The translations under genes were made by a program, and so were the position numbers. 64,000 nt of DNA from Microbacterium sp. cf046 (GTDB lineage Bacteria > Actinomycetota > Actinomycetes > Actinomycetales > Microbacteriaceae), in NCBI RefSeq assembly GCF_900114345.1, contig NZ_FOZJ01000002.1, positions 620,001 through 684,000 of the forward strand, written 5' to 3'. Below are positions 1,168-7,263 of the stretch, one piece after another (position 1 is the stretch's first letter; the number at the start of each line of letters is the position of its first letter). The notes beneath the pieces were generated by a model. It worked only from the letters and a program-made list of their open reading frames with translations. It did no database searches and was not told the DNA's origin.

Positions 1168-1977
1168 CTAAGCGGGCCGTCGAGTGCCTGCAGCCAAGGC
1201 CCGCGCGGTCTCGGCGAGCCCCTCGATTCCCCCGTCGCGGAGGGCGCGGACCAGCGCGGTGCCCACGATCGCGCCGTCGGCGTACTCCAGCAGACCGGCT
1301 ACCTGTTCTGCTGTGGAGATCCCGATTCCGACGCACGCGCGAAGGTCGCCCCTGCTGCGGGCACGCATCCGCTCGACGAGGCGCCGGGCGGCGGCATCCA
1401 ATTCCGTCCGCTCCCCCGTGATGCCCATCGTCGAGACGGTGTACACGAATCCGGTGGAGGCCTCGATGATCATGTCGAGGCGCTCGTCGGTGGAGGTGGG
1501 CGCGGCCAGGAACACGCGGTCAAGCCCGGTGCGCTCGCTCGCGGCGATCCAGTCGGCCGCTGCATCCGGCGTGATGTCGGGCGTGATGAGTCCGGCGCCG
1601 CCGGCGTCGAGCAGATCGTCGGCATAGCGGTCGACGCCGTACTGCATGACCGGGTTCCAGTACGTCATCACCAGCACGGGCACATCAACGCGTCGCGTGA
1701 TCTCACGCACGGCGGTGAAGGTGTCGCGCAGGCGGAATCCCCCGGCCAGCGCGGCCTGGGTCGCCTCCTGGATGACCGTGCCGTCCATCACCGGGTCGGA
1801 GTACGGCGGGCCGAGTTCGAGGATGTCGCCCCCACTCTCGGCGAGCGCGACGGCGGCGTCGATGCTGGTCTGCAGATCGGGGAAGCCGATGGGCAGATAT
1901 CCGACGAACGCTCCGCGGCCGTCGGCGTGCGCGGCGTCGATCGCCGCTGCGACGCGGGACGCGGTCCGTGCGCTCAC
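1168..1977 (-). CDS. trpA: Tryptophan synthase alpha chain
   Basis: The alpha subunit cleaves indole-3-glycerol phosphate to indole and glyceraldehyde 3-phosphate and channels indole to TrpB. The 269-residue TIM barrel keeps the catalytic Glu and Asp: Glu54 in ILELGPPYS and Asp65 in [11 protein letters not shown] correspond to Glu49 and Asp60 of the Salmonella enzyme. The phosphate-binding end (GIGIST, then GAIVGTALV) is also intact. The GTG start overlaps the trpB stop by four bases (GTGA), which implies translational coupling and suits equimolar synthesis of the alpha2-beta2 complex. Confidence 0.97.
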
Positions 1978-3236
1978 AGCTCCATTCCGTCGCCCTTGGC
2001 AGCCTCGGCGGATGCGGCGGCCGCGACGGCCTCCGCCGCGTCGGCGTCGTACAGCTCGAAATAGCGGGCCGCCGTGTCCATGTCCTTGTCGCCCCGCCCC
2101 GACAGGCAGATCGCGATGACCGCATCCGGTCCGAGTTCGGGCCCGATTCGCAGAGCGCCGGCCAGCGCATGCGCTGACTCGATCGCGGGGATGATCCCCT
2201 CGGTCTCCGACAGCAGGCGCAGGGCCTGCATCGCCTCGTCATCGGTCGCCGGGATGTAGTCGGCACGGCCGATCGATGCGAGCCACGCGTGCTCGGGGCC
2301 GACGCCCGGATAGTCCAATCCGGCAGAGATCGAGTGGGACTCGATCGTCTGGCCGTCCTCGTCCTGCAGCACGAAGGTCTTCGCACCGTGCAGCACGCCC
2401 GGCCGACCGCGCTCGATGGATGCCGCGTGCCGCGGGGTGTCGACGCCGTCGCCGGCCGCCTCGACGCCGTAGAGCTTGACGCCCTCGTCGTCCAGGAACG
2501 CATCGAACATGCCGATCGCGTTCGAGCCTCCGCCGACGCACGCGAACACGGCGTCCGGCAGGCGGCCGATCTCGTCGATGAGCTGCGCGCGGGCCTCTTC
2601 GCCGATGATGCGCTGGAAGTCGCGCACCATCGCCGGGAACGGATGCGGACCCGCCGCCGTCCCGAAGATGTAGTTGGTCGTCTCGACACTCGCCACCCAG
2701 TCACGGTATGCGTCGTTGATCGCGTCCTTCAATGTCCGTGAACCGGTCGTCACCGGAATGACCTCTGCGCCGAGCAGCCGCATGCGCGCCACATTCAGCG
2801 CCTGGCGCTGCGTGTCGACCTCGCCCATGTAGATCGTGCACTCGAAGCCGAACAGCGCCGCCGCCGTGGCGGTGGCCACGCCGTGCTGACCGGCTCCGGT
2901 CTCCGCGATCACGCGCGTCTTGCCGAGCCGCTTGGTCAGCAGAGCCTGGCCGAGCACGTTGTTGATCTTGTGCGAGCCGGTGTGGTTGAGGTCCTCGCGC
3001 TTGAGGAAGACCCGCCCGCCGCCGGCGTGAGCCGCGAATCGGGGCACTTCGGTGAGCGCAGAGGGGCGTCCGGCGTACGAGTGGAGCAGGCCTCGCAATT
3101 CGGCATCGAAGGCGGGATCGGCCATGGCCGCCTCGTACACGGCGGTCAGCTCGTCGATCGCCGCGATGAGCGATTCGGGCATGTAACGACCGCCGAACTC
3201 GCCGAAGTACGGCCCAGGGGCCTCGCGCAGGCTCAC
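1974..3236 (-). CDS. trpB: Tryptophan synthase beta chain
   Basis: TrpB is the PLP enzyme that condenses indole with serine to make tryptophan. The PLP-lysine motif HTGSHKINN, the glycine-rich phosphate loop [10 protein letters not shown] and the monovalent-cation region are present. I place the start at GTG 3236 ([20 protein letters not shown]) rather than the upstream in-frame codon at 3302. GTG 3236 overlaps the trpC stop as GTGA, the same arrangement as trpB/trpA, and gives 420 residues, close to the family norm, while the upstream start would overlap trpC by about 70 bases. It belongs to the trpC-trpB-trpA-lgt part of the his-trp operon. Confidence 0.95.
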
Positions 3237-4075
3237 GCCGAATCTCCGTTCCGTCGCGCCTGCAGCTCGCTCGACGACCGCCGATTGCTCAGCACTTCGC
3301 ATGATCCGGCCTCCAGGAACGCTGTCAGGGTGGCGACGGGGTCGCCTGTCACCAGGGCTTCGCCGATGAGCACGACATCAGCACCCGCGGCTCGATAGTG
3401 CGCGACATCGGCGGGTGTGAGCACGGCGGACTCCGCGATCCTGACCGCGTCATCCGGAATGGCGGCGGCCAGCCGGCCGAACAGGTCGCGATCGAGTTCG
3501 AATGTGGACAGATCGCGGGCGTTGACCCCGATGAGCTTCGCGCCGATGTCGGCAGCGCGCGCGACCTCGTCGGCGGAGTGGGTCTCGACGAGGGGTGTCA
3601 TGCCGAGGTCGAGTGTGAGCGCGTGCAGGCGCGCGAGGAGATCCTGCTCGAGCGCGGCGACGATGAGCAGCACCAGGTCGGCGCCGGAGGCTCGGGCCTC
3701 GAGGACCTGGTACTCCGTCGCGATGAAGTCCTTGCGCAGCACCGGGAGGGTCACGGCGGCTCGCACCGCCTCGAGGTCGGCGAGGCTGCCCTTGAATCTG
3801 CGACCTTCGGTCAGCACCGAGATCGTGGAGGCGCCGCCCTGCTCGTAGAGCCGCGCCTGCAGCGCCGGGTCGGGGATCGCGGCGAGGTCACCGCGCGACG
3901 GGCTCGCGCGCTTGACCTCCGCGATGATCTTCACACGGTCGGCAGGGGCGAGGAAGGCGAGGGCGTCGCGCGGTGCGGGCATCGCGAGCGCCGCCTGTTC
4001 GACGGCTGCGAACGGGCGCTCCGAGGCGCGAGTCTCGGCATCCTGCACAGCGCCGGCCGTGAGGTCGGCGAGCAT
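3233..4075 (-). CDS. trpC: Indole-3-glycerol-phosphate synthase
   Basis: TrpC converts 1-(2-carboxyphenylamino)-1-deoxyribulose 5-phosphate to indole-3-glycerol phosphate. The 280-residue TIM barrel has the catalytic lysine motif [13 protein letters not shown] near the N-terminus, LPVLRKDFI in the middle, and [13 protein letters not shown] and IAESAVLTP toward the C-terminus. ATG 4075 ([12 protein letters not shown]) is the typical start; longer reading frames upstream lack homology. It is a monofunctional enzyme, not the TrpC-TrpF fusion of enterics. The gene lies 35 bases after the HGxxPAAW gene and is coupled to trpB. Confidence 0.96.
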
Positions 4076-4110
4076 GCTCGGACTCACTGGCGTTCGCTCA
4101 GCATGAGTCG

Positions 4111-4341
4111 TCAATGCTCTTTCGGCGTGTACTTCGAGCCGTTGACGCCGTACCCGGCCCTGGCCATGCCCCACCCCACGAGCGCGCCGACCACGACGAG
4201 TCCGACGGAGGCCCACACCAGCCACGGGAGATCGAACCAGTACGCAAGGGTGCCGATCGCGATCGCGGCGAGCATGATGATGACGGCGGTCCAAGCGGCG
4301 GGCGAGTGTCCGTGGCCGGGGTCGCCGATGGGGTTGCTCAT
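4111..4341 (-). CDS. HGxxPAAW family small membrane protein
   Basis: This 76-residue protein starts at ATG 4341 behind a strong GGAGGAA ribosome-binding site. It carries the family motif HGHSPAAW near residue 12, followed by two hydrophobic segments (about 18-35 and 39-57) and a polar C-terminus. The family is known almost only from actinobacterial trp operons next to trpC; its biochemical role is unknown. Its position between the Trp-operon membrane protein and trpC is standard. A link to tryptophan or envelope physiology is only inferred from context. Confidence 0.9.
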   Translation of the reverse strand: MSNPIGDPGHGHSPAAWTAVIIMLAAIAIGTLAYWFDLPWLVWASVGLVVVGALVGWGMARAGYGVNGSKYTPKEH

Positions 4342-4376: not shown

Positions 4377-5021
4377 CTAGCGGGGTCCGGCGGTCGGATC
4401 CGCGGTTGGGTCCGCGCCACGCGAGAGGTCATCCCACGAGTCGATCGCATCGTGAGGGCGGGATGCCGGGGCTCCGCCGTGCGGTTCGGCGGAGGCGACG
4501 GCATCCGCTTCGTAGCGACGTCCGCTCCTGCGCCACGCGCGGGCCGTGACGAGGATCGCGAGGCCTGCGGCGAGCAGGATGACCGTCGCCGTGAGCGTGA
4601 CCGCGGGCCACGCGGTCGGGGTGATCGTGGCGACCAGTGCGTCCACGGCTTCGATGCCGGTGATGCCGGTCGACCCGGTGACCGTGGAGGCGACGGCCGA
4701 GACCGGCGTGGTGATCGCCACCTGCGCGCTCAGGAAGCCGAGGGTGGCCGCGATCGCGACGGTCAGGACGCCGAAGACATAGCGCAGCACCAGCCCGACG
4801 ATCGACAGGGCCGCGCCGAGCGCCAGGACGGCGAGGCTGAGCGGTGCGAGAACCGGCACCGCGGCCGCTCCACTGACGGCGAGTTCGTGGCCCGCACCGT
4901 CGTCGAGCGTCGCCACCAGCCAGGTCTGGGTCGAGGAGATGATCCCGGTCGCGCCGACGGCCAGGACCGCGACGACCGAGAGCAGACGTGCGCGACGGAT
5001 CACTCGTCCACCGTATGTCAC
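4377..5021 (-). CDS. Trp operon-associated membrane protein (TIGR02234-type)
   Basis: This 214-residue membrane protein has an N-terminal hydrophobic helix followed by WLVATL, three further hydrophobic segments (two around residues 60-100 and one near 150-170) and a polar tail. The pattern and the position before HGxxPAAW and trpC match the actinobacterial Trp_oprn_chp family, function unknown. GTG 5021 is chosen because it overlaps the stop of the upstream cell-wall gene as GTGA; GTG 5003 (VIRRARLL) is an alternative start. In relatives the gene directly follows trpE; here trpE is missing. Confidence 0.85.
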   Translation of the reverse strand: MTYGGRVIRRARLLSVVAVLAVGATGIISSTQTWLVATLDDGAGHELAVSGAAAVPVLAPLSLAVLALGAALSIVGLVLRYVFGVLTVAIAATLGFLSAQVAITTPVSAVASTVTGSTGITGIEAVDALVATITPTAWPAVTLTATVILLAAGLAILVTARAWRRSGRRYEADAVASAEPHGGAPASRPHDAIDSWDDLSRGADPTADPTAGPR

Positions 5022-6895
5022 GGCGCCGTGAGACAGCATGCGGCGCCGCCCTGAGCGGTCAGCACCCGCACCTCGTTCGAGGTCGTCCAGAAGCCCCAGT
5101 AATCCTGTCCGGAGCTTCGCACGGTATATCCCCCGAAACGCATGCCCTCCACCGACACCGGGACTCCGGCCCTGCGGATCGTGAGGTGCACGTGATCGAA
5201 TGTCGCGCCGCCACCGCACGGCACGGTCCGGCCCACATCGCCGAGGTAGGTGCCTGCGGTGACGAACTGTCCCACGAGCTGATCCTGATAGTTGACGAGG
5301 TGGTAGTACGTCGACTGCCAGCCGTTCGCGTGGTTGATGCCGAGGTAGGAGGCCGATCCGCACTGCACCCGGTACACCGTGCCGTCCGCGATGGCGAGCA
5401 CGCGCCGGTCGGCACCGGTCTGAGGGCCGAAGTCCAGCGATCCCCGCGCACCGACCGTGCCCCCGGAGTTCGCGTGCGGCGCCCCGGCCGCCCAGCTCTG
5501 GCCGGAGGCGAACGGCAGTCGCCACCGCGGTGCCGTGGCGCTGGACATGCTGGACCAGACGATCGCACCGCCCGGTGCCGTCAGCATCAGGTCCCCGTCG
5601 TTCTGCACGAGCAGTTCGCTCGCATCGGTTCCCGCGGTGCTGGACTCCCAGATGACTCGGCCGTCGACGCCGAACAGGACCGCGTTCCCGTCGTCGCGGA
5701 TGCGCAGCGATCGCACCGTCGCGTCAGCGGCGCCGGAAGTCCACAGCGGCGTCGTGCCGCGGTAGATGCCGAATCGCCCGTCCGTGCCGACACACAGTTG
5801 ATGGCTCGCGTCCGGCGACGCGAGACACGTCCCGGCGCGCACCTCGGTGGCTCGTGTGAGGCGCCCACCGGATGCCTGCGGGAAGTCGCTGCTGAGGAAG
5901 GCCACCTGGTCTCGGACCGTCGCGGAGACGGAGGCCTCGCCCCCGAGGATGACGATCTTGGAGGGCTTCAGCCTGCGGAGTTCATCCGCGACGGGAGTGG
6001 GCAGACCGCCCGCCTGAGTGAGGAGCACCGGCCCGCCGAGCGTGCCGGCCGCCGGTGCGCCTGCGAGTGCGTCTGCGAAGATCAGTCCGTTGGCCACGAA
6101 CGCGATCGGGGCACCGGTCGGGAAGGCCTCGGTGCTGATGGCGATCGCCGTCGAGTACCGATCCGCGCCGGACCAGCGGGAGACCTCTCCGGTCGTCAGC
6201 GCCGCGAGCTGCGATCGGACCTGTTCGCTGACCGAAGCCGCGCCGCCCAGGATCACGATCTTCGCCGGAGCGAGCCGGCGCAGTTCCTCCATCGTCGCGC
6301 CGGGAAGGGCGTCGGGCTGAGTCAGCAGGACGGGGCCGCCAAGCTGCCCGGCGACGGGTGCGCCGGCGAGCGCGTCGGCGAACACGAGTCCGCTGGCCAC
6401 GAATGCGACCGGGCTCGCGACGGGGAACGACTCCGCACTGATGACGGCGGAGGTCGCGTATCGATCAGGCCCCGACCATCGCACGATCTCGGTGGAGATC
6501 AATGCGCGCACCTCGTCCTCCACGGCGGTGCTCACCGAGGCTTCGCCCCCGAGGATGATCACCTTCGCAGGAGCAAGGCGGCGCAGTTCGTCGGCGACGG
6601 GCGTGGGCAGACCGGCGACCTGGGTCAGCAGGACCGGTCCGCCGAGGCGAGTGGCCGCAGGCGCACCCGAGAGCGCATCCGAGAACTCCAGGCCGTTCGT
6701 GAGGAATGCGACAGGGGCCCCGCCTGGGAAGGACTGGGCGCTGATCGTCGACGACGTCGCGTATCTGTCGTGACCTGCCCATCGGGTGACTTCCGCGGAT
6801 GCCGCACGGGCGGGAGAGCCGGACGAGATGAGTCCCGCGACCGCGACCAGGAGGGCGATGACCATGACGGCGATCCTCCTGCGCGCGATCGTCAT
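5018..6895 (-). CDS. Secreted protein with three cell-wall-binding repeats, a lectin-like domain and an M23-type peptidase domain
   Basis: The 625-residue product has a Sec signal peptide (residues 1-32, cut probably after ARA-A). Three repeats of the cell wall-binding repeat 2 type follow at about 38-133, 139-235 and 240-334, each with RW.G.DRYAT, GLxF(A/S)DALx[12 protein letters not shown], LRRLxPxK and ILGGxASVS. Residues 350-450 look like a bulb-type (mannose-binding) lectin domain ([16 protein letters not shown]). The C-terminus resembles an M23 metallopeptidase: H474, D488 in SLDFGP and the HVH pair 568/570 could be the zinc and catalytic residues. It probably binds and trims or remodels peptidoglycan, but activity is unproven. 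The ATG overlaps the hisI stop (ATGA) and its stop overlaps the next start (GTGA). It sits exactly where trpE is expected. Confidence 0.88.
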
Positions 6896-7263
6896 GCCCG
6901 CTCGTCCTCCTGCGTGACGACCGTCGGATCGAGGTCGTCCGCATCGAAGCAGGTCCGCGTGCCGGTGTGGCACGCGGGGCCGATCTGGTCGACTTCCAGC
7001 AGGATCGCATCGCCGTCGCAGTCCAGCCGCGCCCCTCGGACGAGTTGGATGTTGCCGGACGTGTCACCCTTGCGCCAGTACTCCTGACGCGATCGGGACC
7101 AGAACGTCACCCGGCCGCTGGTGAGCGTGCGCCGAAGTGCCTCGGCATCCATCCAGCCCAGCATGAGCACTTCCCGGGTGTCCCATTGCTGCACGATCGC
7201 GGCGACGAGTCCGTCTGCCGTGAAGGTCACGCGAGCGATCCGCTCGTCCACGGTCTCTGTCAC
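6892..7263 (-). CDS. hisI: Phosphoribosyl-AMP cyclohydrolase
   Basis: HisI hydrolyses the adenine ring of phosphoribosyl-AMP in histidine synthesis. The 123-residue monofunctional enzyme has [27 protein letters not shown] and [12 protein letters not shown], the motifs that hold the catalytic zinc and magnesium ions. The separate HisE in the same operon confirms that the two activities are not fused here. The ATG of the downstream cell-wall gene overlaps the hisI stop codon. A gap of about 30 bases separates it from hisF. Confidence 0.96.

Follow-up and report, generated by a model that had tools for sequence, protein, structure and literature searches.

The window, by which we mean the whole stretch of 64,000 nucleotides analysed here, comes from a 3.99 Mb genome in 3 contigs (G000) of the genus Microbacterium. 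Its open reading frames, together with family searches, give the minus-strand order hisG-hisF-hisI-slot gene-Trp_oprn_chp-HGxxPAAW-trpC-trpB-trpA-lgt, in which hisG, hisF, trpB, trpA and lgt take their names from the sequence (Table 1). The slot gene encodes a cell-wall protein and stands between hisI and the gene for the Trp membrane protein (Trp_oprn_chp). An earlier note on this DNA had read the interval from hisI to trpA in the same order, and the family searches bear it out, with trpB and trpA identified by sequence. A longer frame for trpB, extending to 3302, is also in the list of open reading frames; the relatives L141-L143 match from its residue 23.

Table 1. Features of the operon around the slot, with positions in the window.
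Feature	Position	Strand	Basis or remark
hisI, phosphoribosyl-AMP cyclohydrolase	6892..7263	-	Upstream border of the slot; PF01502, 1.4e-33; NF000768 over cut-off
Slot gene, cell-wall protein of 625 aa	5018..6895	-	Pfam; PDB matches; alignment of 8 slot orthologues
ATGA, overlap of hisI stop and slot-gene start	6892..6895	-	Sequence
GTGA at slot-gene stop; next gene probably starts elsewhere	5018..5021	-	Orthologous start 14 nt further on
Trp_oprn_chp membrane protein, GTG start at 5001-5003	4377..5003	-	PF09534, 2.2e-29; start by comparison
HGxxPAAW / DUF6704 protein	4111..4341	-	NF041681 and PF20447 over cut-off
trpC, start approximate	3233..4111	-	PF00218, 5.5e-71
trpB, GTG start, GTGA overlap with trpC stop	1974..3236	-	ORF; junction sequence; named from sequence
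trpA	1168..1977	-	ORF of 269 aa; named from sequence

The slot gene starts on the hisI stop in an ATGA overlap, as the earlier note had described. A coupling GTGA had been proposed for the 3' end as well. The tetranucleotide is present, but orthologous Trp_oprn_chp proteins align from MIRRARL, at the GTG listed in Table 1, and in G003 this same start sits on the hisI stop. Because the orthologous start lies 14 nt past the slot-gene stop, translational coupling at this end is unsupported, and the GTGA is probably a chance occurrence. A scan around the operon returned one promoter-like match, at 3328-3301, and one terminator-like match, where 0.2 and 1.1 respectively were expected, and says nothing firm on co-transcription. 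An assembly error joining two pieces at the slot, raised in the earlier note as a possible undoing of its reading, is unlikely, since the gene occupies the identical place in 7 other genomes.

The 625-residue slot protein has a secretion signal, as judged by eye, together with a lectin-like stretch, three CWB2 repeats and an M23 domain of the LasA/beta-lytic type at about residues 459-600. Pfam finds three CW_binding_2 stretches and a Peptidase_M23 domain over its cut-off; B_lectin (PF01453) scores 21.4 bits, under its cut-off of 32.4, and solved mannose-type lectins match the lectin-like stretch at 5e-8 to 7e-8. The repeats match the solved CWB2 proteins 5j72 and 5j6q. For the C-terminal part, the best PDB match is LasA (3it5, 2.9e-12), and the M23 peptidase 8af1 matches at 1e-9. 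His474, Asp488, His532, His568 and His570 are invariant in the 8 slot orthologues and align with H, D, H, H and H of 8af1; we take these residues to have ligand or catalytic roles. Against LasA, the four histidines align and Asp488 is paired with an Asp four residues beyond what we presume to be the ligand Asp. The slot protein is likely a working wall peptidase. In one pattern scan, relatives outside Microbacterium were not found beyond one weak local match.

Relatives of the CWB2 repeats also occur outside the slot in G011 (10 matches), in G095 (9, slot gene included) and in other CWB2-rich genomes. In some proteins, just the C-terminal part of LasA type is shared, as in the one at G025:C18:157964-158500. 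The 3' side of the membrane-protein gene yielded observations of its own. In G017 (L046), HGxxPAAW and trpC were not found there within the stretch read, and a large ORF of at least 816 aa with Ig-like repeats stands in their place. In G045 (L053), neither HGxxPAAW nor trpC was found within the stretch read on this side, where repeated weak matches suggest a repetitive gene. The his-trp operon may take in surface-protein genes at a second site. Between the membrane-protein gene and trpC, L090 (G024) and L062 (G091) have a few hundred extra bases compared with other slots.

Tryptophan genes in the source genome and across Microbacterium

The earlier note had reported that no anthranilate synthase gene was present in the 64 kb and had proposed a genome-wide search for trpE/trpG and trpD. 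For canonical TrpE the absence extends to the whole source genome: nothing in it reaches the TIGR00564 cut-off of 517.7 bits, and the best score, 278.6 bits, belongs to PabB. An anthranilate synthase candidate of another type is present, however. The source genome holds three trpE_most matches. PabB exceeds the TIGR00553 cut-off and has a PIKGT motif, an isochorismate synthase exceeds that of TIGR00543, and the third match is a TrpE-TrpG fusion of 661 residues at G000:C2:156950-158935, about 0.47 Mb from the slot. The fusion carries a chorismate-binding domain (PF00425, 6.1e-35) and a GATase domain (PF00117, 2e-21) in one ORF. trpD was found at G000:C2:445846-446850, PriA (hisA-trpF) lies at G000:C2:287024-287734 and is over its cut-off, and trpCBA are in the window. 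TrpEG, TrpD, PriA and TrpCBA make up a complete predicted tryptophan route. The suggestion that trpE may have moved holds in the sense that the canonical gene has left its ancestral slot, with the fused TrpEG encoded elsewhere very probably filling its role.

The fusion and trpD recur across nearly the whole genus. The fusion is present in 117/119 Microbacterium genomes (E ≤ 1e-60); the two without a match at this threshold are the drafts G044 (650 contigs) and G103 (480 contigs). trpD is likewise present in 117/119, the misses being again drafts, G016 with 280 contigs and G023 with 500. A TrpE-like trpE_most score was obtained in just 1 of the 119, G090, at 488.8 bits (below 517.7), and the next best is 300.3. 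G090 is an outlier of the genus with both enzymes, its TrpE directly behind hisI and the fusion besides. Among the matches listed, 18 fusion matches have one in-frame stop; for three of these (G067, G032, G071), tblastn matches to the loci themselves contained no such stop. The loss of trpE is thus an old, genus-wide displacement by a Streptomyces-like TrpEG fusion with a Trp leader. Among the entries listed by an open-licence library on anthranilate synthase or trp genes of Microbacterium or Microbacteriaceae, the titles and the openings of abstracts showed no such displacement. The present results document a genus-wide exchange of anthranilate synthase type in Microbacterium.

A second, diverged TrpEG/PhzE-like gene (43% identity) was seen in one Microbacterium genome, at G097:C1:1315340-1316437, and possibly belongs to secondary metabolism. 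Two trpD matches each were seen in G092 (Microbacterium) and G335 (another member of the family).

These results bear directly on the proposal of tryptophan auxotrophy, in which the strain would depend on imported anthranilate or indole. The missing canonical trpE is what speaks for auxotrophy. Against it stand TrpEG behind a Trp leader, trpD, priA and trpCBA in the source genome itself, as well as the near-universal presence of the fusion and trpD in the genus. We reject this proposal on the strength of TrpEG, TrpD, PriA and TrpCBA, and regard it as highly improbable. A gap in an operon, even a conserved one, need not mean auxotrophy.

The Trp leader and the product of the fused enzyme

Upstream of the fusion in the source genome lies a leader peptide, MLANLTWWPAS, followed by a terminator composed of a AGACCGCC-loop-GGCGGTCT hairpin and a T-rich tail. 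The Rfam Trp_leader model matches at this leader below its gathering score (E 0.0031). Of 58 fusion loci from the genus and family, 56 are preceded by a short ORF with WW (1.4 expected in shuffle controls that kept base composition only; misses L116 and L131), as are 58/58 loci in a second set drawn from the genus, 32 of which are common to both sets. By the same composition-only controls, a strict terminator (perfect stem, T-rich tail) is found in 46/58 genus loci, with 12 failing, compared with 0.05 expected. An antiterminator needs a second copy of the terminator's 3' arm. Such a competing segment lies in between at 44 of the 46 terminator loci (2.28 expected, again with base composition alone preserved). 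An early hairpin was counted, without a control, in 41 of the 46. Ribosome-mediated attenuation of the fused gene would account for this leader and terminator. The Streptomyces trp attenuators in the passages of PMC1262725 and PMC8079986 concerned with them have the same anatomy. Leifsonia, another member of the Microbacteriaceae, is among the genomes in PMC1262725, whose corresponding passages give trp attenuators for Corynebacterium and Streptomyces only.

What the fused enzyme makes is less directly read from its relatives. The best solved relative of the fusion is PhzE, at 508 bits, ahead of the best PabB type (67.4) and the best TrpE (55.6). PhzE is the ADIC synthase of phenazine producers (PDB 3r74) and stops at ADIC. 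This resemblance is what recommends the reading that the fusion is an ADIC synthase for secondary metabolism and that anthranilate comes from PabB or another enzyme. Several observations argue against it. Tandem Trp codons precede every locus of the second genus set, the fusion is all but universal in the genus, and the PabB of the source genome has PIKGT, which speaks against PabB as the source of anthranilate. A precedent exists in Streptomyces venezuelae, whose TrpEG is cited in a passage of PMC3111181 as highly similar to PhzE; the reference list of that paper contains a title according to which S. venezuelae TrpEG is an anthranilate synthase and not an ADIC synthase. According to a passage of PMC5958127, sequence neither tells the two enzymes apart nor explains why pyruvate is released by only one of them. 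Because of the Trp leader, the distribution and the lack of another candidate, we infer that the fused TrpEG is much likelier to be an anthranilate synthase, and an ADIC synthase for secondary metabolism is very unlikely. The Microbacteriaceae make it possible to test how a PhzE-like protein comes to release anthranilate instead of ADIC.

The slot in Microbacterium and trpE in the family

The earlier note held that trpE normally sits between hisI and the Trp membrane protein. This is correct for the family as sampled: in 20/20 trpE-bearing genomes, our own picks with one from each of 20 other genera, trpE lies between hisI and the HGxx-trpC side, and the membrane protein between trpE and HGxx went undetected in one of them (L197).

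Within Microbacterium, the comparison of the hisI-trpC interval in sister species gave a different picture. We read 60 slots, chosen from 118 genomes with hisI and weighted to close relatives. In 56 of the 60 the slot is closed, with hisI adjoining the membrane-protein gene, and 53 of these 56 have ATGA or GTGA at the hisI stop; of the rest, G090 has TrpE and three have the cell-wall gene. Four further carriers were added to the slot reading on account of carrying the gene. A search of 366 Microbacterium genomes found the cell-wall gene in 8 (E ≤ 1e-120), always in the slot; as it scored the best 3 candidate places per genome, a carrier in a CWB2-rich genome could have been missed. When up to 10 places were scored in 119 genomes, the same 4 carriers were recovered. 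Named carriers are M. gallinarum, Microbacterium sp. CFH 31415, M. flavescens and a Microbacterium MAG.

The claim that the cell-wall gene replaced trpE fits poorly with these counts, since TrpE-like scores are absent from 118/119 genomes, nearly all slots read are closed and carriers are few. Among what would count against its reading, the earlier note had named sister genomes with the gene in this slot and trpE normally elsewhere for the whole clade. The second part largely describes what we found, as the fusion distribution attests; the gene itself sits in the slot only in the 8 carriers found. The cell-wall gene is an infrequent occupant of the hisI junction, separate from the loss of trpE.

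Across the family, canonical TrpE was found in 204/239 genomes (E ≤ 1e-110) and the PhzE-like fusion in 30/239 (E ≤ 1e-100), with 16 genomes having both enzymes. The 35 genomes without TrpE divide into 14 with the fusion, 4 of which are Microbacterium, and 21 lacking it; TrpE-less genomes were identified from gaps in the match list, which gives 31 outside Microbacterium and agrees with the tally. trpD failed as a discriminating control, being kept in 29 of these 31 and in 19 of the 21 genomes with neither enzyme. A PISGTIARG-type protein is present in 8 of the 21, in genera g21 (G138, G218, G278, G327) and g74 (G191, G253, G304, G349). Two of these proteins were scanned, and both are over the TrpE-clade3 cut-off. 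At eight loci of these genera (L156-L161, L163, L164), no WW leader was found in the 510-base stretch around each estimated start. The TrpE-clade3 type fusions in g21 and g74 are a second, different displacement within the family. In a further genome of the 21, G322, one contig ends in a PIAGS fragment that looks canonical. The other 12 include one genome of 0.9 Mb (G133), eight at most 90% complete, and three (G241, G318, G335) that have neither TrpE nor the PhzE-like fusion and no explanation in completeness or genome size. In genus g49, G166 has the fusion only, and G235, G289 and G337 have TrpE only.

The family is an apparent natural experiment. Most sampled genomes have trpE and some have both enzymes; Microbacterium and a few others have the fusion alone, and two genera have a different fusion.

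History of the slot and comparison with known systems

We consider it very probable that trpE was lost early, that the fused TrpEG supplies anthranilate under attenuation and that the cell-wall gene is a separate tenant. In such a history, canonical trpE would once have occupied the slot that it retains in other genera of the family, and would have been lost early in Microbacterium by a deletion that left hisI against the Trp membrane-protein gene. Anthranilate would be supplied by the PhzE-like single-chain fusion encoded elsewhere. With ample charged Trp-tRNA, the ribosome would pass the tandem UGG codons of the 11-codon leader and the terminator would form; with charged Trp-tRNA scarce, it would stall, the antiterminator would form and the fused gene would be transcribed. 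The cell-wall gene would have settled at the junction in a few lineages, presumably after the loss of trpE, with no part in tryptophan synthesis. Translated by ATGA coupling to hisI, it would yield a predicted secreted, wall-anchored LasA-type peptidase.

When the tenant arrived is where other histories compete. Carriers are scattered, requiring 6 changes on the flanking-gene tree and on the TrpEG tree. Well-supported branches force at least 4 of these on the TrpEG tree and at least 2 on the flanking tree. This pattern suits about six separate arrivals, with the gene transferred from one Microbacterium species to another and the flanking genes recombining. Such transfer would sit uneasily with the distances among the 8 carriers, which track those of TrpEG (r 0.96, Mantel p 0.0008, three of the 8 genomes being close) and contain no recently shared pair; the neighbouring membrane-protein distances behave alike (r 0.96, p 0.0004). 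Recent transfer is not visible in these 8 genomes, and the distances speak against it more than against old transfer. Repeated arrival is a tentative possibility, less likely than not. The same distances lend support to an early replacement, in which the cell-wall gene took the place of trpE early in Microbacterium and most lineages later deleted it, each deletion bringing hisI back against the membrane-protein gene. The lectin-M23 tree of the slot gene resembles the TrpEG tree, all 8 carriers have the gene in the slot, and their common ancestor spans 60/65 rows of the flanking-gene tree, close to the genus root. On the flanking tree of 65 genomes, a single gain would nevertheless entail 21 or more losses, compared with 6 changes when gains are free. 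Seven non-carriers (G038, G032, G043, G034, G071, G005, G002), moreover, branch outside the ancestor of the carriers on the TrpEG tree, an indication that the slot stood empty first. The flanking tree leaves only G047, G091, G086, G051 and G090 outside. The two gene trees thus disagree over which genomes these are, and they do not settle whether the cell-wall gene arrived before or after the loss of trpE. Both are quick trees with many weak forks; in the flanking tree, the rows of G019, G017 and G045 have under half the columns, trpC lacks about 23 residues at its end and G090 alone forms the root. We judge early replacement unlikely.

More doubtful still is the idea that the slot gene has been a working part of the his-trp operon since an early ancestor, translated with hisI and lost at least 21 times by deletions that restored the junction. 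If it were true, histidine or tryptophan demand would release a wall-bound LasA-type peptidase that remodels or digests peptidoglycan, the cell's own or a neighbour's.

The slot protein and the fusion can both be set beside known systems. The M23 domain of the slot protein is closest, among solved structures, to LasA-type peptidases, and its repeats to CWB2 cell-wall proteins. It differs from both in having CWB2 repeats, a lectin-like stretch and a peptidase in one chain, encoded within an amino-acid operon.

The fusion resembles TrpEG of S. venezuelae in being a PhzE-like single chain with chorismate-binding and amidotransferase domains, a likeness seen through the resemblance to PhzE only. 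As in the Streptomyces trp attenuator, a tandem-Trp leader and a terminator stand upstream; the leader before S. lividans trpE has WWW (in a passage of PMC8079986), whereas that of Microbacterium has WW. Unlike in Streptomyces, canonical trpE has been lost from the his-trp operon in Microbacterium. PhzE matches the fusion over both of its domains, but the fusion's Trp leader and its occurrence in almost every genome of the genus speak for primary metabolism. Finally, the TrpE-clade3 proteins (TIGR01815) of two other genera of the family are also TrpE-TrpG fusions; the Microbacterium fusion scores 126.5 bits against that model, under the cut-off of 739.15.
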